Assembly (NCBI RefSeq): GCF_000341085.1
Contig: NZ_ANBA01000011.1
Location: 248,001-312,000 of the forward strand
DNA: 64,000 nt
From: Nocardiopsis ganjiahuensis DSM 45031
GTDB taxonomy: Bacteria; Actinomycetota; Actinomycetes; Streptosporangiales; Streptosporangiaceae
Direction of reading: 5' to 3'
Shown: positions 15,993 to 25,822 of the stretch, one piece after another
How positions within the stretch are numbered: position 1 is the first letter of the stretch
Layout of the letters: each line of letters begins with the position of its first letter
Position numbers and translations under genes: made by a program
The notes under the pieces: generated by a model
Seen by the model: only the letters and a program-made list of their open reading frames with translations
What the model was told of the DNA's origin: nothing
Database searches by the model: none

Positions 15993-18545
15993 TTACTGGC
16001 AGGCCTCGCACTCGGGGTCCTCGATGCTGCACGCCTGGCCGTCGACGATCTCGAACTCGTCCTCGGGCTCGGGCGCGACGGGCTCGGCCACGGGGGCCGG
16101 GCTCGGCGTCGGCGCCGGGGCGGCGGGCACCGGGGCGGCCACGGGAGCGGCCGGGCCGGAGGAGACCGCGTTCAGGCGGCCGTCCGTGCCCTTGAGCGTG
16201 CTCTTCTCCACGTGGGTGGCGCTCTGCGAACGCAGGTAGTAGGTGGTCTTGAGACCGGAGCGCCAGGCGCGGCGGTACAGGGCGTCCAGCTTCTTGCCGC
16301 TGGGGGCGCCCATGTACAGGTTCAGCGACTGGGCCTGGTCGATCCACTTCTGGCGGCGCGAACCGGCGTCCACGAGCCAGTTGGGGTCGATCTCGAACGC
16401 GGTGGCGTACAGGGCCTTGAGGTCGTCCGGGACGCGGTCGATGTCACCGAGGCTGCCGTCGTGCATCTTCAGCGCGGACACCATGTCCTCGTCCCAGAGG
16501 CCGCGGTCCTTGAGGTCGCGGACCAGGTAGTCGTTGACCACCGTGAAGTCGCCGGACATGTTCGACTTGACGAACAGGTTCCGGTAGACCGGCTCGATCG
16601 ACTGGCTGACGCCGGTGATGTTGGCGATGGTCGCGGTGGGCGCGATCGCCATGACGTTGGAGTTGCGCATCCCGTTGGACTTGACGCGCTCGCGCAGGGA
16701 GTCCCAGTCCAGGGTCTCGCCGCGGTCCATGTCCAGGTCGCCGCCGCGGGAGTCGGCGAGCAGGCGCAGGGAGTCGATCGGCAGGATGCCCTGGCTCCAC
16801 AGCGAGCCGTCGAAGCTCTCGTACGCACCGCGCTCGGTGGCCAGCTCCATGGACGCCTCGATGGCGTAGTAGCTGATCAGCTCCATGCTCTCGTCCGCGA
16901 AGGTCACCGCGCCCTCGGAGGCGAACGGCGTGCGGATCTTGAACAGCGCGTCCTGGAAGCCCATGAGGCCCAGGCCGACCGGGCGGTGGCGCATGTTCGC
17001 GCGGCGCGCCTCGGGGATCGTGTAGAAGTTCACGTCGATGACGTTGTCGAGCATGCGCACGGCGGTGCGGACGGTGCGGCGCAGGCGCTCGACGTCGATG
17101 CCGTTCGGGCCCACGTGCTGGGGCAGGTTCACCGAGCCGAGGTTGCAGACCGCGACCTCGTCCTTGCTGGTGTTCAGCGTGATCTCGGTGCACAGGTTGG
17201 AGGAGTGCACCACACCGTTGTGCTGCTGCGGCGAGCGCAGGTTCGACGGGTCCTTGAAGGTGATCCACGGGTGGCCGGTCTCGAACAGCATGGTGAGCAT
17301 GCGGCGCCACAGGTCCACGGCGGGCATCGTCTTGGAGACCTTGATGCGGCCGGCCGCGGCGTCGGCCTCGTACTTCTCGTAGGCCTCGACGAAGTCCTGG
17401 CCGTACTTGTCGTGCAGGTCGGGCACCTCGTCCGGGGAGAACAGGGTCCAGGTGCCCTGCTCCTCCACGCGCTTCATGAACAGGTCCGGAACCCAGTTCG
17501 CGGTGTTCATGTCGTGGGTGCGGCGGCGCTCGTCACCGGTGTTCTTGCGCAGGTCGAGGAATTCCTCGATGTCGATGTGCCAGGTCTCGAGGTAGGCGCA
17601 GACCGCGCCCTTGCGCTTGCCGCCCTGGTTGACCGCGACCGCGGTGTCGTTGGCGATCTTCAGGAACGGGACGACGCCCTGGCTCTTGCCGTTGGTGCCC
17701 TTGATGTGCGAGCCCAGGCCGCGGACCGGGGTCCAGTCGTTGCCCAGGCCGCCCGAGTACTTGGACAGCATGGCGTTGTTGCTGATGCCGTGGAAGATGT
17801 CCTGCAGGTCGTCGCCGACCGTGGTCAGGAAGCAGGACGACAGCTGCGCGCGCACCGTGCCCGAGTTGAACAGGGTGGGGGTGGAGGCCATGAAGTCGAA
17901 CGAGCTCAGCAGCTCGTAGAACTCGATCGCGCGGGCTTCGCGGTCGTCCTCGTTGAGCGCCAGGCCCATCGCGACGCGCATGAAGAACGCCTGCGGGAGC
18001 TCGTAGCGGACGTCGTCGCTGTGCAGGAAGTAGCGGTCGTACAGGGTCTGGAGACCGAGGAAGGTGAACTGCTCGTCGCGCTCGGCGTGCAGCGCCTTGC
18101 CCAGTCGCTCCAGGTCGAACTGGGCCAGTGCCGGGTCCAGCTGCCCGAGGGCGATGCCGCGGCCGACGTAGGCGCCCAGGTAGCTGGCGTAGCGGTCGTC
18201 CATGTCGGACTGGGTGGCGGTCTCGGGGGCGCCGCCGACGAAGCTCAGGGCCTCGGTGCGGAGCTTGTCCAGCAGCAGGCGGGCGGCCACGTACGAGTAG
18301 TTCGGGTCGACCTCCACGTAGCTGCGGGCGGCCATGACCAGGGCGAGCTCGACCTCGGAGGCGGCAATGCCGGGATAGAAGCCCCTCCGCGCCTCGGTGA
18401 GGACCTTGTCCGCCGAAACACCGGTGAGCCGCGCACAGGCCTCGGTTACGACGTGCTCGATCCGGTCGATGGCGGCGCGGGCGCCACCTCCGTGGGTCGG
18501 CTCGGGCCGAACGGATACGGGCACGGCCTCGACGTCAAGGGTCAT
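15993..18545 (-). CDS. nrdA: Ribonucleoside-diphosphate reductase large subunit
   Basis: NrdA reduces ribonucleoside diphosphates to deoxy forms with NrdB. The 850-residue protein has the catalytic core: [12 protein letters not shown], the active-site Cys pair and loop in SSCFLTT and SSNLCTE, and [18 protein letters not shown] Pro/Ala-rich linker (about 785-825) leads to a C-terminal Cys tail, [12 protein letters not shown], for shuttle reduction. The N-terminus aligns with the helices of the E. coli ATP-cone, but the nucleotide-binding hairpin (VTKRDG in E. coli) is replaced by a Gly/Pro stretch, so ATP/dATP activity control may be altered. The start is the ATG at 18545, with GGAG 7 bases upstream. 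Confidence 0.95.
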
Positions 18546-18846
18546 ACAGCGGCTCCAACCTCGGTAAAGAAGAGTCCCGGCGGGGAAACGGGGTTCACGA
18601 GTAGCAGACGCGCGGCTCGCACCGGCGGCCCAACGCACTGGGTGCGAATGAACCTGTGACCGGTGGGTCGCGGCGACTCCCCTCGAAGCCCCCTCGTCTG
18701 CGTTGTCGGCGGCTGGTCCTGGGACCCGCGGGTGACCTACTCGACCACTGCTCCCCGAAGTCGATCGGACTCCGGCGGACGTGGCGGTCGTCGTTCCCGC
18801 CTGTTTCACCAGGGCGGGAACCCCGGTGAACCACCAACGGGACCCG
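18546..18846 (-). promoter_or_regulatory. Long leader of nrdA with hairpin
   Basis: About 300 bases lie between the NrdR-like box and the nrdA start with no gene. On the minus strand a hairpin with 8-bp arms TTCCCGCC/GGCGGGAA forms near 18797-18823. I compared the leader with the cobalamin riboswitch known from some nrd leaders and did not find the conserved CCACTG core, so I do not call a riboswitch. Confidence 0.4.
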
Positions 18847-18862
18847 ATACTACATCTAGGGG
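18847..18862. promoter_or_regulatory. NrdR-like box upstream of nrdA
   Basis: The 16 bases ATACTACATCTAGGGG match the NrdR-box consensus ACACwAtATwTwGTGT at about 11-12 positions, including the ACTAcAT core. NrdR boxes usually come in pairs about 31 bp apart. The next candidate, at 18876, matches only about half, so the second box is doubtful. Confidence 0.5.
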
Positions 18863-19412
18863 CGGCTGCCTTGGAACACCCCAAGATGATGGCGTGTCGC
18901 TGATTTCTCGGATTCTTCGACGAGTGTCGAACACACGCGTGGAGCGTGGTATGAGTGCCTCATCATCGCCCGATTTCGAGGCGTGTCCGGCCGGGTTCGC
19001 AGGCTTTCGGAGAGGGTCGCACACAGCCTAGGACGTCGGCGGGGCACACGTGTCCGCCCGACTCCCGGAGATGGGCCACAGGTGGTCTGCAGGGGCGCCG
19101 GGACGGGGCCTGCGCGGCACGGGAAAGGTGCCGGAACCTGGCGTACCCGGTCGGCGTGGCAGCGGGAGCCGTGCACCGGGCGTCCGGAACCGGACGCCCG
19201 CCCCCGGCCCGGGACGGTCCGGGACGCGTCAGAAAGCTCACTCCTCGCCGCCGGACAGGGGGTCGTTCTCACGCCCGGCCCGGTCACCTCCTCCCCGGCG
19301 ATCCTGGAGGTGACCGGGGCCGGGCACGGGCGTGTCGGGGGTCTTCGTGCAGGCGTGGGTGACCGCGATGACCGGGTCCCCGCGTTGTGGGCGCGGGTCC
19401 GGCTGCGGGAGC
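18863..19412. other. Intergenic region between nrdA promoter and TPR gene
   Basis: No gene is supported in these 550 bases. The nrdA promoter should lie near 18865-18960 on the minus strand. The remainder is GC-rich noncoding sequence ending in the strong terminator at 19273-19325. Confidence 0.4.
19273..19325 (-). terminator. Terminator of the NYN/TPR operon
   Basis: A 19-bp inverted repeat with one bulged base (19273-19291 and 19306-19325, 14-base loop) lies about 90 bases after the TPR gene stop. Confidence 0.8.
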
Positions 19413-19985
19413 TCACTCCGTGTCGAGGAGGAGGTCCAGGTCGTCCTCGGGCAGACCGAGGTCGGTCCGGATGCGGAACCGGATCCTGAGGAGCTCGAAG
19501 AACAGGTCCCGGGTGTAGGCGGGCGGGTTCGTGCCCTCGAACCGGCGGGCGCCCGCGGTGGCCCAGCGCTCGGCGCCCTCCAGGTCGTCGTGGGCGTAGA
19601 GGACCTCCGCGACGTGGATGTGGGTCTGGAGTCCGGGTCCGTCCCCGGTCTCCAGCCGTTTCAGGTGCTCGTAGGCCAGGTCGTGCTCGTCCAGCTGGAG
19701 CAGCGCCCCGGCGCTCAGGGCGTGTGCGTCGACCACGGTGGGACCGCCGTCGTCCATGGCCCGCTGGTACGCGGCGCAGGCCCGCTCGAACTCCTGGGCG
19801 ATCTCCCACTGCTCCCCGGCGCGCACGAACAACTCCGCCCGGGTGACCTCGCTACCGGCGTCGACCCTGTTGGCCAGATCCAGCAGTTGGGCGGCGATCC
19901 GACTGTGTTCGCCGGACCTGACGGCGTGGAATTCCAACCGGTCGAGTTCTGCCGTCGTCACGTGGGTCAACCGCATCGCCCCCAT
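19413..19985 (-). CDS. TPR-like helical protein, function unknown
   Basis: This soluble 190-residue acidic protein is made almost wholly of paired helices with tetratricopeptide-like spacing (for example WEIAQEFERACAAYQRAMDDG and AEVLYAHDDLEGAERWATAG). The end is a run of acidic residues and leucines. TPR proteins mediate protein contacts; no partner is named by the sequence. It starts 26 bases after the NYN-domain gene on the same strand and is probably co-transcribed, so a link to RNA metabolism is possible but unproven. The start could be the ATG at 19985 or at 19976; the second has a better-spaced G-rich site. Confidence 0.7.
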   Translation of the reverse strand: MGAMRLTHVTTAELDRLEFHAVRSGEHSRIAAQLLDLANRVDAGSEVTRAELFVRAGEQWEIAQEFERACAAYQRAMDDGGPTVVDAHALSAGALLQLDEHDLAYEHLKRLETGDGPGLQTHIHVAEVLYAHDDLEGAERWATAGARRFEGTNPPAYTRDLFFELLRIRFRIRTDLGLPEDDLDLLLDTE

Positions 19986-20011
19986 CCCCTACTCGCACTC
20001 GCGCGCACCGG

Positions 20012-21718
20012 TCAGGGTCTGGCACGCTCCAGCGCCTGCCAGAACCCCTGGCGCAGTCCGTCACGGACCTCGTCGCGCAACAGGTGGTCGATCGGGAGTG
20101 AGGAGCCCTGAAGCAGACGTGCCTCCAGGTCGGAGGGCATCCGCGGCCTGCGGGCCAGGACAGCCTCGACCCACAGGGCGGGCGCCTCACGTGCGATCGA
20201 CTCCGCGAAGTCGTTCCCTTCCTTGTGCGCGACATGCACCGCGTCATCAACGGTATGCGCGGGGGAGCCCGTCTGCTGGGTATATCCAGGACTAGGGCTG
20301 GATTCCTGGTAACCACCGGGGCCGAACCGGCTGTCGTACTCGGGACCAGTAGGTCGCCGTTCCCCGAACCGGGGGTCGGCGCCACCGCGGCGTGCGGTGT
20401 CAGTTTCCGTACTGGTCCCATAGGTAGGGTTTGTGTCCGCCCCACCTCCGAAGCCTGGCTCCTCACCGGATCCGAACCTCAGGTCCTGCTGGGGAGGTGG
20501 GGTGTTTCTCTGCGGTGGCCCCTGCTGGGGATCGGCGAACGAGGCCTGTGGGCCGGTCCCGTTGTTGAAGGCTCTCTGGGGCCCCGTCCCGTTGAAGGAC
20601 GGCTGGGGTCCGGTCATCGAGTGGCCCTGTGGCTGTCCCGGTACCGGTCTGCCGGGGAGACCGTAGCCCCCCTGCTCGATCCCGCGCATGGACTGGTGTC
20701 CGCCGGTGCCGGAGGGCGGGTAACCGCCCTGGCCGCCGGTGCCGTGCCCGTTCTGCGTGGCGTGACTGTTCTGGGCGGGGTGCCCGTTCTGGGCGGGGTG
20801 GCCTCCCGTGGCCCCGGGATAGGACCCGTTGCCGCTCACCCCGGGCGGGACCTGCCCGCCGGAGGGGAAGCCGTTCGCGTCGATCGCACCGGAGGGCGTG
20901 TTCTCCGAACCCGGTCCGGCCAGGTGGTCGACGCCGCGCTGTTGCGCTATCGAACGGCGCATCGCACGCAGCTGCTCCATGGCGCTGCCCTGGGGCACGG
21001 GCTGGCCGCCGGTGCCGGCGAACATCGCCTCGAGGCCGCCGGTGGAGGTACTGACCGGGTCGACCCGGCCGGTGTTGGCGGCCGCCGCCACGGGCTGGGG
21101 CGGGGTCTCCGGCGCCGACCGGGTGCGGCCGTTGGAGAAGGGGGTGGTGGTCTTCGCGGCCGTCTCCTGGGTGGAACCGCCGCCGGAGAGCAGGCTGACG
21201 TGCGGGCGCAGGTGCCCGGCACCGATCTCGATGAGGTCGTCGCACTCCCGGCGCAGCGCGCGGGAGATGGTCCAGTTGCCCTCCACCGAGATGTGCACGA
21301 CGGTGACGCGCACACCCATGTCCTGGACGTCGGCGACCACGGACGCCATGTCCTCGTCCCCGCTAACCAGGACCGCGTCGCACAGGACGCCGGTACGGGC
21401 CAGGGTGGTGAGGTCGCGCTGGACGTAGCTCTCCACGCCCTCGCGGCGGCCCGGGCGTATCCGGGCGGCCCGGAACTTGATACCGGGGATGTCGGCGATG
21501 CTGTCCTGTTCCTGGGCCCGCCGGTCGTCGGCGATCGCCTCGTACCAGTAGCAACGCAGGAGCGGCAGCCCCGTCCGGTCCCGCGCCACCTCGTTGAGGA
21601 ACTGGACGAGACCGGAGTAGTCCCAGGCGACGGAGTCCCGGTTGCGGGTTCCGTGCACGGCCATTGCACCGTCGGCGAGAAGGTATCCCGCGTCGACGAA
21701 CAACGCGCAGCGGTCCAC
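20012..21718 (-). CDS. NYN-domain RNase-like protein with disordered tail
   Basis: The first 170 residues form a NYN/LabA domain, a PIN-like nuclease fold. It has acidic metal-binding positions in CALFVDAGYLL (Asp9), the DEDM turn after VLVSG, and the EGNWTISRALRRECDDLIEIG ending. A Gly/Pro/Gln-rich low-complexity region of some 320 residues follows, including a short tandem repeat of GHPAQN units. The last 80 residues are a folded helical domain (KEGNDFAESIAREAPALW onwards). It probably cleaves or binds RNA in the cytoplasm, with the tail for assembly or interaction. The GTG at 21718 is chosen because the conserved first strand starts just after it; a GGGGG site lies 8 bases upstream. Confidence 0.78.
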   Translation of the reverse strand: MDRCALFVDAGYLLADGAMAVHGTRNRDSVAWDYSGLVQFLNEVARDRTGLPLLRCYWYEAIADDRRAQEQDSIADIPGIKFRAARIRPGRREGVESYVQRDLTTLARTGVLCDAVLVSGDEDMASVVADVQDMGVRVTVVHISVEGNWTISRALRRECDDLIEIGAGHLRPHVSLLSGGGSTQETAAKTTTPFSNGRTRSAPETPPQPVAAAANTGRVDPVSTSTGGLEAMFAGTGGQPVPQGSAMEQLRAMRRSIAQQRGVDHLAGPGSENTPSGAIDANGFPSGGQVPPGVSGNGSYPGATGGHPAQNGHPAQNSHATQNGHGTGGQGGYPPSGTGGHQSMRGIEQGGYGLPGRPVPGQPQGHSMTGPQPSFNGTGPQRAFNNGTGPQASFADPQQGPPQRNTPPPQQDLRFGSGEEPGFGGGADTNPTYGTSTETDTARRGGADPRFGERRPTGPEYDSRFGPGGYQESSPSPGYTQQTGSPAHTVDDAVHVAHKEGNDFAESIAREAPALWVEAVLARRPRMPSDLEARLLQGSSLPIDHLLRDEVRDGLRQGFWQALERARP

Positions 21719-21917
21719 GTGACACCGCCCCCTTCCCTGTCGATCTCTGGGGCCATATCCATGACCGGGGCACAGCCTAGCCAAGTCTGTCTCGTTTTGC
21801 GTGCCACCGACGAACACTGACAGTTACGGTCTTGCTACACACAGGCGGTCTTCTGGGATGACTTGCGGTTTTCCGCTCGCCTCACGAGCGCCGGAAAGAC
21901 CTCCCCCTCAACGGACT

Positions 21918-24833
21918 TCACGTGCGCATCGGGGCCGTGAGGGCCACGACCCCCACCAACACGGCGTCCTGGCCGGAGGAGATTCGGATATCCGTTTTAC
22001 GCCCGAGTACTGCGTTGAATCGGACCACGTCCGTCCCGAACGTCATCGGGTCGCCCACGGCACCGCGCGCGGAGCTCACGAAGACGTTGTCGACGCTCCC
22101 GTGGCCCCCGGTCGGTGCGACCGGCGTCCCGCCGACCGTCACCCGGTCACCGCCGAGATCCGCGTCGCCCTCCCAGGCCACCACGTCGAACGTGGCCGCG
22201 ACCGACTCCGGCAGCAGGCCCGACACCGGGAACCGCGCCCCGGTCTCGTCCTGGAAGACCGCACTGGTCTCGTCCAGCACCATCGCCTGGTGGTAACCCT
22301 CCACGGCGGGATCCTCCAGGACCACGACGAGGCTCCAGCCCGCGTGGACGCCCCGGCCCTCCCGGGTCGGGATGTCACCGACCCACCACTCGCCACCACC
22401 ACCCGCCCGGACCAGTTCGGTGACGTTGGCGAACGCCTGGTAGGCGGGGTAGGCGGGCAGCTGGGCGACCCGGGTGTCGGAGGCCGTGACCGTCGTGTAG
22501 GCCGCCATGCCCGGGCCCTTGATCCGCGCGGTGGGCATGCCGGGTTCACCGGCCGCGGAGAAGTACAGCCCGGCCCAGCGCACCGTCCCTCCGGCCGGGA
22601 GTTCCCAGGTGACGGAGCTGGAGGAGGTGGTGGTGGGGTCCTGGTCCCGGTCGAGCGGGGCCATCACCCAGTTGTCGTTGTCGAGCCGGTCACCGACCCG
22701 GTTCCGCGCGTCCGCGCACGGGCCGGACCCGTCCCCTTCCTCCTCTTCCTCCTCGGCGTACCCGTCCTCGGGGACGGGGGAGGGTTCGGCGGGGGTGTCG
22801 ACCGGGTCCTCGGCCCCTTCGGAGCCGCCCGCACCACCCGCACCGCCGGCTCCGCCCGAACCGTCGGCGTCTCCGGCGCCCTCCTCGGAGCCGTCCGGCA
22901 CATCGTTACCGGATTCGTTCCGGGGACCGTCGAGGACCCCACCATCACCCAGGACATCACCGACCCCATCACTCACATCGGCCCCCGGGGCCTCGGAGTC
23001 AACGGGCGCCCGCCGCAGGTCGGCGCCATCCCCCGAGTCGGTGGGAGGTCCCCCGGGGTCGGTCGGTGCGGGCGGAACCACCGGACGCTCGTCCGGCAGG
23101 TCCACCGAGCCCCCCGGCCGGCCCCACCACGGCCAGGGCCACCCGCCCGTGGGCGGATCCGGTTCGGTGCAGGTCAGCAGGGCGTTGCCGACCGCCTCCG
23201 TGCGCACCTGTCCCGCGGTGGCGTAACGGGCGGCGATGCCGTCCGGGGTCACCCCCCGCTCGCCGACCGCCTCGAAACTGATCCCGCCGGAGGAGACCAC
23301 CACGCTGGCGGGCACGTTCACGTCGGCGTCGGTCGCCACACGGACGTCGAAGAACTGGGTACTGGTCTCACCCTCGCCCATCCCGGGGCGCACGCACTCA
23401 CCGCCGCCGCTCCCCGCGGAGCAGCCCCAGTCACCGTGGCCGACCGCCATCGGGACCGCGTTGCCCGCGCCGCCGGAGGAGATCATCTCCACGCCGGGCG
23501 GCAGGGTGATGGCGGCGACCACGTCACCGGCGGTGTCCGTTCCCAGGTTGAGCACGTCCAGGACCATGATCCCGTCGTTGCCCGGGACCAGCGCGCCGAC
23601 CGGGTCGATGCCCGCGGCGAACTCCGGCAGCAGCTCCTCCGGCTCCTCCGGTTCCTCCGGGGGTTCGGGCGCCTCCGGGGGTTCGGGCTGCTCCGGCTCG
23701 TCCGGGGGCTCGGGGGCCGGCGGCGCGGGGGTCGGGACCGAGGCCGCCGGGACGTCCGCGGGCGGCGCCGGTACGGGCTGGGGCGCCGGCGGGTTCGGGG
23801 CGGGCGGATCCTGTGCGGGCGGATCGGCCGGAGGGCTGTCGGGGGCGGGCTCCCCCGCGGGCGGCTGTTCCTGGGGCGCCGCCACCGGAGGGGGGTCGAC
23901 CGGGGGCGCCCCCTCGCCGCCGACCAGGGCGAGCGCGACCGCGGCGGCCACACCCGCGGCGGCCACGGCCCCGGCGGTGGCCTGCTGCTGACGGCGGGAC
24001 ATCCGGTTCCACCAGGCACCGGTCGCGGCCCCGCCCGGGGTGGCGGTGAGGTAACCCGTGGCACCGAAGCCGACCACCAGGGGAAGGACGATCCCGCGCA
24101 GTCCGACGTTGACGTCCATCAGCTCCGCGTACACCTCGCGGCAGTCCGCGCAGTCGTCCATGTGCCGGTCGACCTTGGTGGTGTCGCGCTTGGACAGGCC
24201 CCCGCGCACGTAGGCGCCGAGCAGGCCGAGCGTGGGCCGACAGGCCTCCGCCGCACCTCCTCCCGCCAGGTGCATCTGCAGGTAGGCCTGGCGCAGCCCC
24301 TCGCGCGCCCGGTAGGCCAGGGCGGCCACGCCGTTGGCGTTCATCCCGAGGATGGTCGCGGCCTCGGCGGGCTTGACCCCCTCGATCTCCGTGTGCCAGA
24401 GCACGGACTGCCAGCGCTCGGGCAGGGAGAGGAAGGCACGGGCGATCAGCGACCGCTCGAGGCCCTCCAGCGCCGGGTCGACGAAGGGCTCGCCGGAGTC
24501 GTAGCTCTCCATGTCGTCGGTGACGAGCTGGCGCTTCTCCCCTCTCCCCCGGTCATAGGCCGCGTTGCGCACCGCCGTCAGGAGGTAGGGGCGGAAGGCG
24601 TCGCTGGGACCGCCGCCGCGCTGGATGACGCTGAGCACCTTGGTGAACGCCTCGGCGACCGCGTCCTCGACCTCGGCCTCACCCCGCAGCAGTTGGCGGG
24701 CCAGGCCGCGGGCGGCTCCGGCGTGGCGTTCGTAGAGGGTCCCGTAGGCGGCGTTGTCGCCCGCCTTGACCCGCTCAATGATCTCGGCGTCACCGACCAG
24801 TGTCTCGGTGTGCTCGCCCTCGGCGTCGGTCAC
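21918..24833 (-). CDS. Membrane-tethered ECF sigma factor fused to zinc-finger, TM and large extracellular domain
   Basis: One 971-residue protein joins a regulator and its sensor. Sigma region 2 lies at about 20-95 and region 4 at 125-185. A zf-HC2-type anti-sigma zinc site, HMDDCADC (His224, Cys228, Cys231), follows. Hydrophobic stretches come at 247-263 and 286-305. Then come about 120 residues rich in Pro, Glu and Ala, a DUF11-like beta domain, a second Pro/Gly/Glu-rich linker, and a C-terminal beta-rich domain of about 270 residues. The layout puts sigma inside and the rest outside the membrane. Release probably needs proteolysis or a conformational signal; no separate anti-sigma gene is next to it. 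The start is a GTG at 24833 with AAAGGG upstream. The divergent neighbour is GGDEF-like. Confidence 0.85.
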   Translation of the reverse strand: MTDAEGEHTETLVGDAEIIERVKAGDNAAYGTLYERHAGAARGLARQLLRGEAEVEDAVAEAFTKVLSVIQRGGGPSDAFRPYLLTAVRNAAYDRGRGEKRQLVTDDMESYDSGEPFVDPALEGLERSLIARAFLSLPERWQSVLWHTEIEGVKPAEAATILGMNANGVAALAYRAREGLRQAYLQMHLAGGGAAEACRPTLGLLGAYVRGGLSKRDTTKVDRHMDDCADCREVYAELMDVNVGLRGIVLPLVVGFGATGYLTATPGGAATGAWWNRMSRRQQQATAGAVAAAGVAAAVALALVGGEGAPPVDPPPVAAPQEQPPAGEPAPDSPPADPPAQDPPAPNPPAPQPVPAPPADVPAASVPTPAPPAPEPPDEPEQPEPPEAPEPPEEPEEPEELLPEFAAGIDPVGALVPGNDGIMVLDVLNLGTDTAGDVVAAITLPPGVEMISSGGAGNAVPMAVGHGDWGCSAGSGGGECVRPGMGEGETSTQFFDVRVATDADVNVPASVVVSSGGISFEAVGERGVTPDGIAARYATAGQVRTEAVGNALLTCTEPDPPTGGWPWPWWGRPGGSVDLPDERPVVPPAPTDPGGPPTDSGDGADLRRAPVDSEAPGADVSDGVGDVLGDGGVLDGPRNESGNDVPDGSEEGAGDADGSGGAGGAGGAGGSEGAEDPVDTPAEPSPVPEDGYAEEEEEEGDGSGPCADARNRVGDRLDNDNWVMAPLDRDQDPTTTSSSSVTWELPAGGTVRWAGLYFSAAGEPGMPTARIKGPGMAAYTTVTASDTRVAQLPAYPAYQAFANVTELVRAGGGGEWWVGDIPTREGRGVHAGWSLVVVLEDPAVEGYHQAMVLDETSAVFQDETGARFPVSGLLPESVAATFDVVAWEGDADLGGDRVTVGGTPVAPTGGHGSVDNVFVSSARGAVGDPMTFGTDVVRFNAVLGRKTDIRISSGQDAVLVGVVALTAPMRT

Positions 24834-25066
24834 CCAGCGCCCTTTCCCTTGTGGTGCCGTCTCCCCCGCCGCGAGCCGGAACTTGTGGGGCGCGGGGGAA
24901 TGAAGGTCCGGCGTCGGAGAATCACGTGCTCGAAAAAATATCCCGTATCCGCGTCATAGCCGCTACCGATCTACGTGATTGGGGTGAGGGCGAACGGAGC
25001 GGGCCCACCGCGGGGGCGCGGACCCACCTCCGTTCACCTGGCGAAACGACGACCGGGAGCAGTGCC
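24834..25066. promoter_or_regulatory. Divergent promoter region, sigma factor and GGDEF-like gene
   Basis: These 233 bases separate two divergent starts. An AT-richer patch (TCGAAAAAATATCCCG) lies near 24930-24945. A GGAACTT near 24877 resembles an ECF minus-35 element, but no CGTC-type minus-10 lies at the usual distance, so self-regulation is not shown. Confidence 0.35.
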
Positions 25067-25822
25067 ATGGGCGAGATCGATGTGGGTGCCGGAGCGCGGG
25101 ACCGTGTGGTTCACCGTGCCCGGAAACTGCGTGCGCCGTGGGGGCGCCGGAGCAGGGATGAGGGGTGGAATCCGGCCGAGGACTGGTGGACCCCCTCCGT
25201 GGACGCCGTCTGCGAGGCCCACACGGGCGGCCGCGACCTGTCCGGAGCCTGCGCCCGGCTCGGGGAGGCCCGCGCCCGCTCCGGGGTGGGCATCGGCCGG
25301 GCTCTGACCGACCTCGGCGCCTTCGGCTCCGTCGCGGGCTGGGACCAGGTCCCGCTTCCGCTCCTGCGCTCACTGGCCGAGGGCTGGGTCGAGGGCACCC
25401 TGAGCCGCGACACCTGTCAGGACCCCCTCACCGGCCTGGCCAGCGAGGCGTACCTGCGCACCCGGATCAGCGAGCTCTACCGGAGCGCGGACGACACGGT
25501 CCCGGCGGCGTTCGGCCACCGGTTGGTCGTGGTGGCGCTGGACCCCTCGCTCGACCCCTGGCGGCGGACGGCCCGGCTGATCGTGCTCGGACACGAGCTG
25601 AGCCGCTTCTTCACCCGGGGCGAGTCCGTGTGCCTGGCCGGCCGGGGCCGGATCGCGGTGGTCACCGAGGACGGTCCCGGGCTGGAACCGGAACTGGACG
25701 AGCTGCGCACGGGGATCGGCTGGGAGCACGGGGCCGCCGTGTGGTCGGTCCCGATGCCCGGCACCCACCGGGAGGCGGCGGCCCTGGTCGACGGCCTGGG
25801 GAGACCTCGGCGGGACGAATGA
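25067..25822 (+). CDS. Degenerate GGDEF-like protein
   Basis: This 251-residue soluble protein has the opening signature of a GGDEF (diguanylate cyclase) domain, DPLTGLASEAYLRTRISELY, at about 126-145. The loop where GG(D/E)EF belongs reads GRGRIAVV and lacks the active site, so it should not make cyclic-di-GMP. It may bind a nucleotide or a protein instead. The N-terminal 120 residues are helical and match nothing I know. The ATG at 25067 has GGGAG 7 bases upstream. Its gene is divergent from the tethered sigma factor, so a functional link is possible but not shown. Confidence 0.6.
   Translation: MGEIDVGAGARDRVVHRARKLRAPWGRRSRDEGWNPAEDWWTPSVDAVCEAHTGGRDLSGACARLGEARARSGVGIGRALTDLGAFGSVAGWDQVPLPLLRSLAEGWVEGTLSRDTCQDPLTGLASEAYLRTRISELYRSADDTVPAAFGHRLVVVALDPSLDPWRRTARLIVLGHELSRFFTRGESVCLAGRGRIAVVTEDGPGLEPELDELRTGIGWEHGAAVWSVPMPGTHREAAALVDGLGRPRRDE

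Follow-up and report, generated by a model that had tools for sequence, protein, structure and literature searches.

A one-piece ECF52-like sigma factor gene and its degenerate GGDEF-like neighbour, joined by a conserved promoter-like element, in Nocardiopsis ganjiahuensis

Architecture of the sigma factor protein

The window, a stretch of 64,000 nucleotides from Nocardiopsis ganjiahuensis DSM 45031 to which all positions refer, carries a one-piece ECF sigma factor gene (21918..24833, minus strand), a divergently transcribed GGDEF-like partner gene (25067..25822, plus strand) and, between them, a conserved bipartite promoter-like element, CGTCA-N17-CGT (24952..24976, plus strand), which is directed at the partner. 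The sigma factor gene begins with GTG and encodes 971 aa; all of its features lie on the minus strand. Sigma-70 region 2 (residues 33-101; 24531..24737) matches Pfam Sigma70_r2 (PF04542) over the cut-off with E 3e-10, and region 4 (residues 129-178; 24300..24449) scores 25.3 bits with Sigma70_r4_2 (PF08281), just under the cut-off of 25.7. In NCBIfam, TIGR02937 exceeds its cut-off over residues 29-183; the best 25 of 50 models are all sigma-factor models, and among them only the general sigma70-ECF model is over its cut-off. An anti-sigma-type zinc site follows (residues 198-232; 24138..24242; zf-HC2, PF13490, E 1.4e-8, over the cut-off), whose ligands Cys198, His224, Cys228 and Cys231 are invariant in 27/27 aligned sequences, including that of the window. 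Conservation within the protein is highest in its sigma and zinc parts.

The strongest hydrophobic 19-mer (residues 287-305; 23919..23975; mean hydropathy 2.17) is predicted to form a membrane helix. A second, lower hydropathy peak is located at residues 238-256 (1.64), so that one or two membrane helices are possible as judged by hydropathy. About 665 residues extend beyond the membrane stretch, beginning with a proline-rich linker (residues 310-404; 23622..23906; 44% Pro). The preliminary description had placed the sigma regions, a zinc site, a membrane helix and a large ectodomain in one chain, and the Pfam matches, the hydropathy profile and the single frame bear this out. It had also allowed for a frameshift or sequencing error that joined two genes. 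Among the 26 related loci in which sigma was matched, 22 retain a single open frame of more than 700 aa from the sigma start and four are interrupted, and the GTG start occupies the equivalent position in 25 of the 26, which makes such a join unlikely; this origin of the reading frame was rejected.

The ectodomain comprises three parts. Residues 405-560 (23154..23621) are conserved in the genus and contain a DUF11-like domain, matched over residues 424-511 at only a sub-threshold E 0.18 in Pfam, and probably the first cysteine-bearing strand of the C-terminal domain; in the Nonomuraea locus L145, the corresponding stretch continues directly into the C-terminal domain. A poorly conserved stretch rich in Gly, Asp and Glu (residues 561-702; 22728..23153) separates this part from the C-terminal ectodomain (residues 703-971; 21921..22727). 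The latter appears related to DUF3344 (PF11824), which is detected at E 1 or better in 5 of 23 aligned relatives (best 4.4e-5) and not in the window's own domain, for which the Pfam scan returned no match. In the predicted structure (pLDDT 83.7), residues 848-968 fold like a carbohydrate-binding module and resemble CBM35/36 folds (Z 8.7-9.5), with CBM35 2w1w superimposing at Z 9.5 and rmsd 2.8 over 104 aligned residues. Foldseek also paired the C-terminal domain with capsid, protease and other chains, but at low TM-scores, and these hits were set aside; folds missing from the VIA lists were given no weight. The preliminary description did not recognise this ectodomain. It is not entirely unknown, given the sub-threshold DUF11 match, the relation to DUF3344 in some relatives and the CBM-like sandwich.

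One sigma core carries different ectodomains across relatives, which offers a natural series of sensors. Seven ectodomain changes are counted on the sigma tree. This count is approximate because the NPCBM label was extended to all eight loci of family f20, which we take to be the Streptomyces family, from the single scanned locus L099; because L066 was labelled 'other', yet its C-terminal domain sits in another frame of the locus; and because long branches meet (L104 with f20). The tree left out 13 loci judged to be fragments or duplicates, or else divergent or additional copies, and was thinned by 20 more (Lentzea, Amycolatopsis, Saccharopolyspora and others). The C-terminal domain is also present in large DUF11 proteins that have no sigma domains (L110-L112).

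The GGDEF-like partner and its association with the sigma gene

The partner gene was assigned the ATG at 25067, where protein homology begins, and the first in-frame start at 24800 was rejected on this ground. Its 251-aa product consists of a helical domain (residues 7-115) and a GGDEF fold (residues about 113-251) in which GRGRI replaces GGDEF. Pfam gave no match to this protein. Structure comparison with LapD (3pjw) yielded Z 12.3 and rmsd 3.7 over 132 aligned residues, and a profile match to DgcR (6zxm) was obtained at E 0.0016; the protein thus has the fold of diguanylate cyclases. The GG(D/E)EF signature is absent from all 44 rows of the main partner alignment (A6; the window together with 43 of 58 available named partner sequences) and from all rows of two others (0/20 in A5, 0/17 in A3). 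A much looser GGDEF pattern, sought anywhere in the chain, occurs in 1/17 rows of A3 and in none of A5 or A6. The gene is therefore degenerate, as first described, c-di-GMP synthesis is unlikely, and an active diguanylate cyclase was rejected as the identity of the partner. A loosely defined DPLTGL-type motif is retained in 35/44 rows. RsbRD_N matched 3/44 family members weakly (best E 0.057) and was not relied on.

A partner match was detected in 35 of 246 genomes of the class. With one sigma place counted per genome, all 35 lie within 500 bases of the sigma match, 19 divergently and 16 on the same strand, and in this sample the candidate partner was never found apart from the sigma gene. The same-strand matches are mostly weak (E 1e-6 to 1e-11). 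Among 40 genomes of the genus, 31 have both genes, three have the sigma gene only, one has only a GGDEF-like remnant and five have neither. The two genes decay jointly in three genomes (G002, G020 and G028). Other genomes retain parts of the locus: G025 and G017 have lost the partner gene but keep the sigma gene and the element, both partner and element are missing from G024, and G009 has only a shortened partner. No GGDEF-like match was found at the threshold used in 51 of the 86 genomes with the sigma protein, including every f20 genome with a sigma match, and the partner is therefore not needed everywhere; of these 51 genomes, at least G058 has a diverged partner copy (L105). Partner presence requires 12 changes on the sigma tree. 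The surroundings of the locus, with NYN, TPR and ribonucleotide reductase genes, are themselves syntenic in the genus. The preliminary description had asked whether the pair is missing from all relatives, which these counts answer in the negative. Its suggestion that the two proteins act in the same pathway gains support from the constant adjacency, the joint loss in some genomes and the common promoter-like element. No description of the pair was found in the open-licence literature searched.

The bipartite element CGTCA-N17-CGT

The element is aimed at the partner in 68 of 75 divergent intergenic regions, against 0.3 expected from shuffles that preserve nothing but letter composition, and 0-5 at other spacings; the loci compared are related. 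The 75 divergent loci were drawn from L066-L105 and L126-L205, with L106-L125 left out. The element loci cover 27 of 32 genus labels, and their spacers share a mean identity of 35%. In four of the seven misses (L074, L142, L066 and L075), TGTC replaces CGTC and the spacing is unchanged; L074 and L142 are one contig fetched twice, and both are counted among the seven. The element also lies upstream of the pair in 7/7 same-strand loci fetched, which represent six of the 16 same-strand genomes and G058. Taken by itself, the one match in the window is unremarkable (2.4 expected), and the significance of the element derives from the divergent and same-strand loci together. In form it corresponds to an ECF promoter, with two boxes, a fixed 17-base spacer and a CGTC-like downstream box.

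Loci without a detected partner give a more varied picture. Among 44 such loci, seven have a copy directed toward the sigma gene that outscores the 50 shuffles of the same locus; L086, L087 and L121 are the clearest cases. In 20, a copy that likewise outscores its shuffles points away from the sigma gene. The eight f20 loci carry weak copies only; the best, in L099, scores 12.2, compared with at most 10.2 among its shuffles. The strict form of the element has five matches in the window's genome, where about four are expected by a rough estimate, and a reversed control pattern has one. Three of the five lie inside ORFs (L207, L208 and L210) and one faces away from the nearest ORF (L209); only the match at the present pair looks like a promoter, and hence no wider regulon is seen.

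A proposed switch and its relation to known systems

The domain order, the single frame, the adjacency, the conserved element, the lost signature and the varied ectodomains are directly seen here. We consider it probable that the locus encodes an ECF52-like sigma factor with a built-in anti-sigma module, which is released on a surface signal and activates a GGDEF-like feedback partner through CGTCA-N17-CGT. The sigma domains would be cytoplasmic and held inactive by the zinc module, and the membrane helix would connect them to a surface sensor formed by the DUF11-like and DUF3344/CBM-like domains. In response to a cell-surface or polysaccharide signal, the sigma part may then be set free, either by cleavage or by a change of conformation. 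As the position and conservation of the element suggest, the freed sigma could guide RNA polymerase to CGTCA-N17-CGT and switch on the GGDEF-like gene and, in certain lineages, also the sigma gene itself. For the GGDEF-like protein, the probable role is that of a cytoplasmic partner dedicated to the sigma factor, which gives feedback or senses a nucleotide. On this reading the sigma factor would recognise the element and may be cleaved, and the partner may bind the sigma factor. More tentatively, the pair may represent a two-gene actinobacterial unit, absent from the literature searched, in which a membrane sigma factor with swappable sensors has a dedicated, catalytically silent GGDEF-fold target and regulator that closes a feedback loop on the released sigma, perhaps gated by a nucleotide, and in which signals from outside (surface) and inside (nucleotide) would converge on one sigma factor.

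Other readings place the weight on different parts of the evidence. It is possible that the locus is a second-messenger module, in which the partner binds c-di-GMP or another nucleotide and, when ligand-bound, holds or releases the sigma factor, by analogy with the action of c-di-GMP with RsiG-WhiG. The retained GGDEF fold and the DPLTGL-type motif are compatible with such binding, while the missing signature makes synthesis unlikely. A somewhat less likely reading is that another ECF sigma factor reads the element, or that it is a transcription-factor operator, so that a third regulator merely co-regulates both genes. The tie between sigma factor and element is indirect, and the weak copies in f20 would fit; against this, the element has the shape of an ECF promoter, its spacing is kept in 68/75 loci and it precedes the pair in either gene order.

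Two further explanations appear improbable. The ectodomain might be a surface adhesin or wall-binding part of a mainly structural protein with a constitutively held, vestigial sigma portion, as the occurrence of the C-terminal domain in the sigma-less DUF11 proteins would allow, but the sigma and zinc parts are the best conserved and the zinc ligands do not vary. The slightest probability is given to an ordinary ECF52 member whose GGDEF-like gene is a chance neighbour retained by synteny; the syntenic surroundings and the 12 changes on the tree speak for this, and the 35/35 adjacency across several families in two arrangements, together with the joint decay in three genomes, against it.

If the proposed switch is correct, one sigma factor would tie surface sensing to a regulator with a GGDEF fold. 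The element offers a testable candidate promoter. The surprise of the locus is the GGDEF-like partner and not the sigma architecture. The latter is not new; it is that of the published ECF52/ECF53 groups, and earlier work has suggested that these proteins are released by proteolysis (PMC8999054, PMC5826349). The window's protein has ECF regions 2 and 4, a fused zinc finger, a membrane helix by hydropathy and a long proline-rich extension, and on sequence is ECF52-like. For the C-terminal carbohydrate-binding domain of ECF52 proteins, the CBM35/36-like fold of residues 848-968 is a possible counterpart.

Its reciprocal best match is L099, the only f20 fused protein that was scanned whole, zinc finger included, and in which NPCBM was found. 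L099 adjoins genes for a TetR protein and for a pyridine nucleotide oxidoreductase. SCO4117 is described in a like setting, with NPCBM in the protein and TetR encoded next to it, which suggests that L099 may be its orthologue (PMC5826349). In Streptomyces coelicolor, SCO4117 governs development as well as antibiotic production, and it is the only ECF52 member with a deletion study in the literature searched; a version truncated to the sigma portion activates the SCO4117 gene, and the same work settles neither the promoter signature nor the post-translational control of SCO4117 (PMC5826349). In both SCO4117/ECF52 and the window's protein, a single polypeptide runs from the sigma domains through a zinc finger, a membrane helix and a proline-rich stretch to a C-terminal surface domain. 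The ectodomain is DUF11-like plus DUF3344/CBM-like in the window, where NPCBM was not found, and NPCBM in SCO4117/ECF52, and the adjacent gene is the GGDEF-like partner in the former and atrA in the latter (PMC5826349). Compared by eye, CGTCA-N17-CGT is unlike the highly degenerate SCO4117 motif CSGYN-17-SRHA (PMC5826349).

ECF48/ECF53 likewise have a fused zinc finger and membrane part, with activation by proteolysis expected (PMC8999054). Some ECF52/ECF53 proteins carry glycosyl hydrolase domains (PMC10766802), none of which was found by Pfam in the window's sigma protein. IutY of Pseudomonas putida (ECF243), compared here by its description, is a sigma factor fused to a membrane anti-sigma part and freed by regulated proteolysis, but belongs to a proteobacterial iron system, unlike that of the window (PMC8999054). 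Compared with diguanylate cyclases and degenerate GGDEF receptors such as DgcR and LapD, the partner shares the GGDEF fold; in contrast to DgcR and LapD, it lacks the signature, has an N-terminal helical domain and adjoins a sigma gene in 35/35 genomes. The pair thus suggests an unstudied partner for the ECF52-like switch, in which the two genes stay together in many genera with a common element.

A membrane-tethered sigma factor in one frame

The sigma gene (24833..21918, minus strand, GTG start) encodes a protein of 971 residues. Pfam places sigma-70 region 2 at residues 33-101 and a zf-HC2 zinc finger at residues 198-232, with sigma-70 region 4 (residues 129-178) just missing the 25.7-bit cut-off at 25.3 bits; the NCBIfam sigma70-ECF model matches residues 29-183 above its cut-off. 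The top hydrophobic stretch is located at residues 287-305, with a weaker one at residues 238-256. It is followed by a proline-rich stretch (residues 310-404, 44% proline), a conserved domain (residues 405-560) matched by DUF11 only at E 0.18, a Gly/Asp/Glu-rich stretch of low conservation (residues 561-702) and a conserved C-terminal domain (residues 703-971). Among related loci, conservation is highest in the sigma and zinc part and lowest in the proline-rich and acidic stretches; the zinc ligands C198, H224, C228 and C231 are present in 27/27 aligned sequences, the window's own counted. The acidic low-complexity stretch (window 22728-23153, minus strand) seems to be inserted within the C-terminal domain, between two cysteines, because the flanking parts are contiguous in Nonomuraea (L145).

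A sigma match was found in 26 of 35 stretches drawn from related genomes; of these, 22 carry a single uninterrupted frame longer than 700 aa, which argues that the one-chain protein is real and not two genes joined by a sequencing error. The frame is interrupted in the remaining four (L040, L048, L053 and L055), L048 coming from an assembly with 84% completeness. In some relatives (L066, 2153-6189; L040; L053) the break falls between the sigma part and the ectodomain, reflecting either a real split or an assembly error in the proline-rich repeat. A similar break of frame is reported for S. clavuligerus in an excerpt of PMC5826349.

The GGDEF-like partner and its distribution

The divergent partner gene extends from ATG 25067, a start set by homology, to 25822 (plus strand). 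In the model of its product (pLDDT 91.1, pTM 0.67), a helical domain (residues 7-115) precedes a C-terminal domain, and the latter aligns to GGDEF domains (LapD 3pjw; Z 12.3, rmsd 3.7, 132 residues); a profile of 44 partner sequences matched DgcR at E 0.0016. A loosely defined DPLTGL-type motif is retained in 35 of the 44 aligned partner rows. The GGDEF signature is found in 0/44, with GRGRI at that site in the window's protein; because of this loss, the partner is not expected on its sequence to make c-di-GMP.

The nearest named relatives belong to Nocardiopsis and Streptomonospora. Within the genus, 34 of 40 genomes have the sigma part and 32 have the GGDEF-like protein; both occur in 31, sigma without partner in three (G025, G017 and G024), a lone GGDEF-like remnant with stop codons in one (G028) and neither in five (G002, G011, G012, G020 and G035, the last with a contig end inside the sigma gene). 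Within the 31, the partner is shortened in G009 and frames are broken in G013 and G018. The sigma gene is reduced to its 3' end and the partner lost in G002 and G020, and both genes are remnants in G028. In a class sample of 246 genomes, the sigma-zinc-helix part (E <=1e-25) was present in 86 and the GGDEF-like protein (E <=1e-5) in 35, all 35 within 500 bases of the sigma match. The tethered sigma factor beside a degenerate GGDEF-like gene, as noticed in the preliminary description, is confirmed. Nineteen pairs are divergent and 16 lie on the same strand with the GGDEF-like gene just upstream; the same-strand partner matches are mostly weak (E 1e-6 to 1e-11), and position adds support. Titled records with the divergent pair cover Nocardiopsidaceae, Streptosporangiaceae, Thermomonosporaceae, Pseudonocardiaceae, Actinopolysporaceae, Cellulomonadaceae and Promicromonosporaceae. 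At the thresholds used, the partner was undetected in family f20, apparently the Streptomyces family, and likewise in several genera belonging to the same family as the window.

Three genes follow the sigma gene downstream (window 15993-21817, minus strand): one with an NYN domain (PF01936, E 3.2e-9), one that is TPR-like and one whose product, by eye, looks like a ribonucleotide reductase. This order is constant in the examined genus loci, even those missing the sigma gene.

A promoter-like element ahead of the partner

A bipartite CGTCA-N17-CGT element is directed at the GGDEF-like gene in 68 of 75 divergent intergenic regions, compared with 0.3 in letter shuffles; other spacings gave 0 to 5 and the reverse orientation at 17-base spacing gave 7. 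The mean identity of the spacers is 35%. The element occurs in 27/32 genus labels, Pseudonocardiaceae supply 39 of the 68 copies, and conservation in Nocardiopsis extends past the two boxes. In same-strand loci it is found with identical spacing upstream of the GGDEF-like gene, and hence of the whole pair, in 7/7 fetched (0.04 expected). The window copy (24952-24976, plus strand), a match that chance would account for if the window alone were considered, precedes the partner start by 90 bases and is separated from the sigma start codon by 118.

Because G025 and G017 retain the element and have lost the partner, it may also serve the sigma gene. The partner was undetected at 44 loci; in 7 of them (most clearly L086, L087 and L121) a copy directed into the sigma gene exceeded its shuffles, and in 20 a copy directed away from sigma did so. 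The best copies in the eight f20 loci are weak (L099, 12.2 versus a shuffle maximum of 10.2). In four Actinomadura loci (L147, L148, L155 and L159) the sigma protein is short (ORFs of 465-523 residues) and the partner undetected, yet a copy directed away from sigma is retained.

Zinc anti-sigma modules keep ECF sigma factors inactive, and membrane-bound anti-sigma factors are frequently removed via proteolysis. We infer that a surface signal would free the sigma part from the membrane, that the freed sigma would read the element and that the GGDEF-like partner would act in feedback. The strongest argument for the latter two steps is the occurrence of element, partner and sigma gene together in two gene orders.

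Variable ectodomains and known fused sigma factors

One sigma core carries differing ectodomains across relatives: NPCBM in L099, immunoglobulin-like domains with a ricin-type lectin in L092, DUF11 under its cut-off in L166 and no recognised domain in L134. Mapped onto a quickly built tree of 99 sigma-zinc sequences, the three ectodomain labels (window-type C-terminal domain, NPCBM, other) require 7 changes and the presence of the partner 12, both approximate, with some loci left out. The window-type C-terminal domain also occurs without sigma parts, near the start of large DUF11-repeat proteins of other actinobacteria (L110, 3-4514; L111, 3-3515; L112, 5053-9843) and in separate ~400-residue proteins of f20 genomes (L107 and L109). 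DUF3344 matches 5 of 23 aligned relatives weakly (best 4.4e-5), the window's own domain not among them. The model of the window's domain (pLDDT 83.7) is beta-strand for the most part; residues 848-968 align best to a GH86 enzyme (Z 10.8, rmsd 3.0, 113 residues) and also to CBM35 2w1w (Z 9.5, rmsd 2.8, 104 residues). Both are modest Z values, and a common fold is no proof of sugar binding.

The f20 locus L099 encodes sigma regions, a zinc finger and the NPCBM domain (E 1.8e-29), and adjoins genes for a TetR protein and a pyridine nucleotide oxidoreductase. It is the sole match in its genome at E 1e-25, and its back-search of the window's genome returned the sigma gene at 9.4e-55, with the second-best at 4.4e-4. 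On this two-way best matching, the TetR neighbour and the description of SCO4117 excerpted from PMC5826349, we name the window's protein ECF52-like. No description of the partner or of the promoter candidate was found in the open-licence papers searched. The sigma-ectodomain architecture is of a known kind: SCO4117, an ECF52 member that adjoins atrA, has the same domain order as the L099 homologue (PMC5826349, excerpt), and ECF48, ECF52 and ECF53 are fused groups probably activated by proteolysis (PMC8999054, excerpt).
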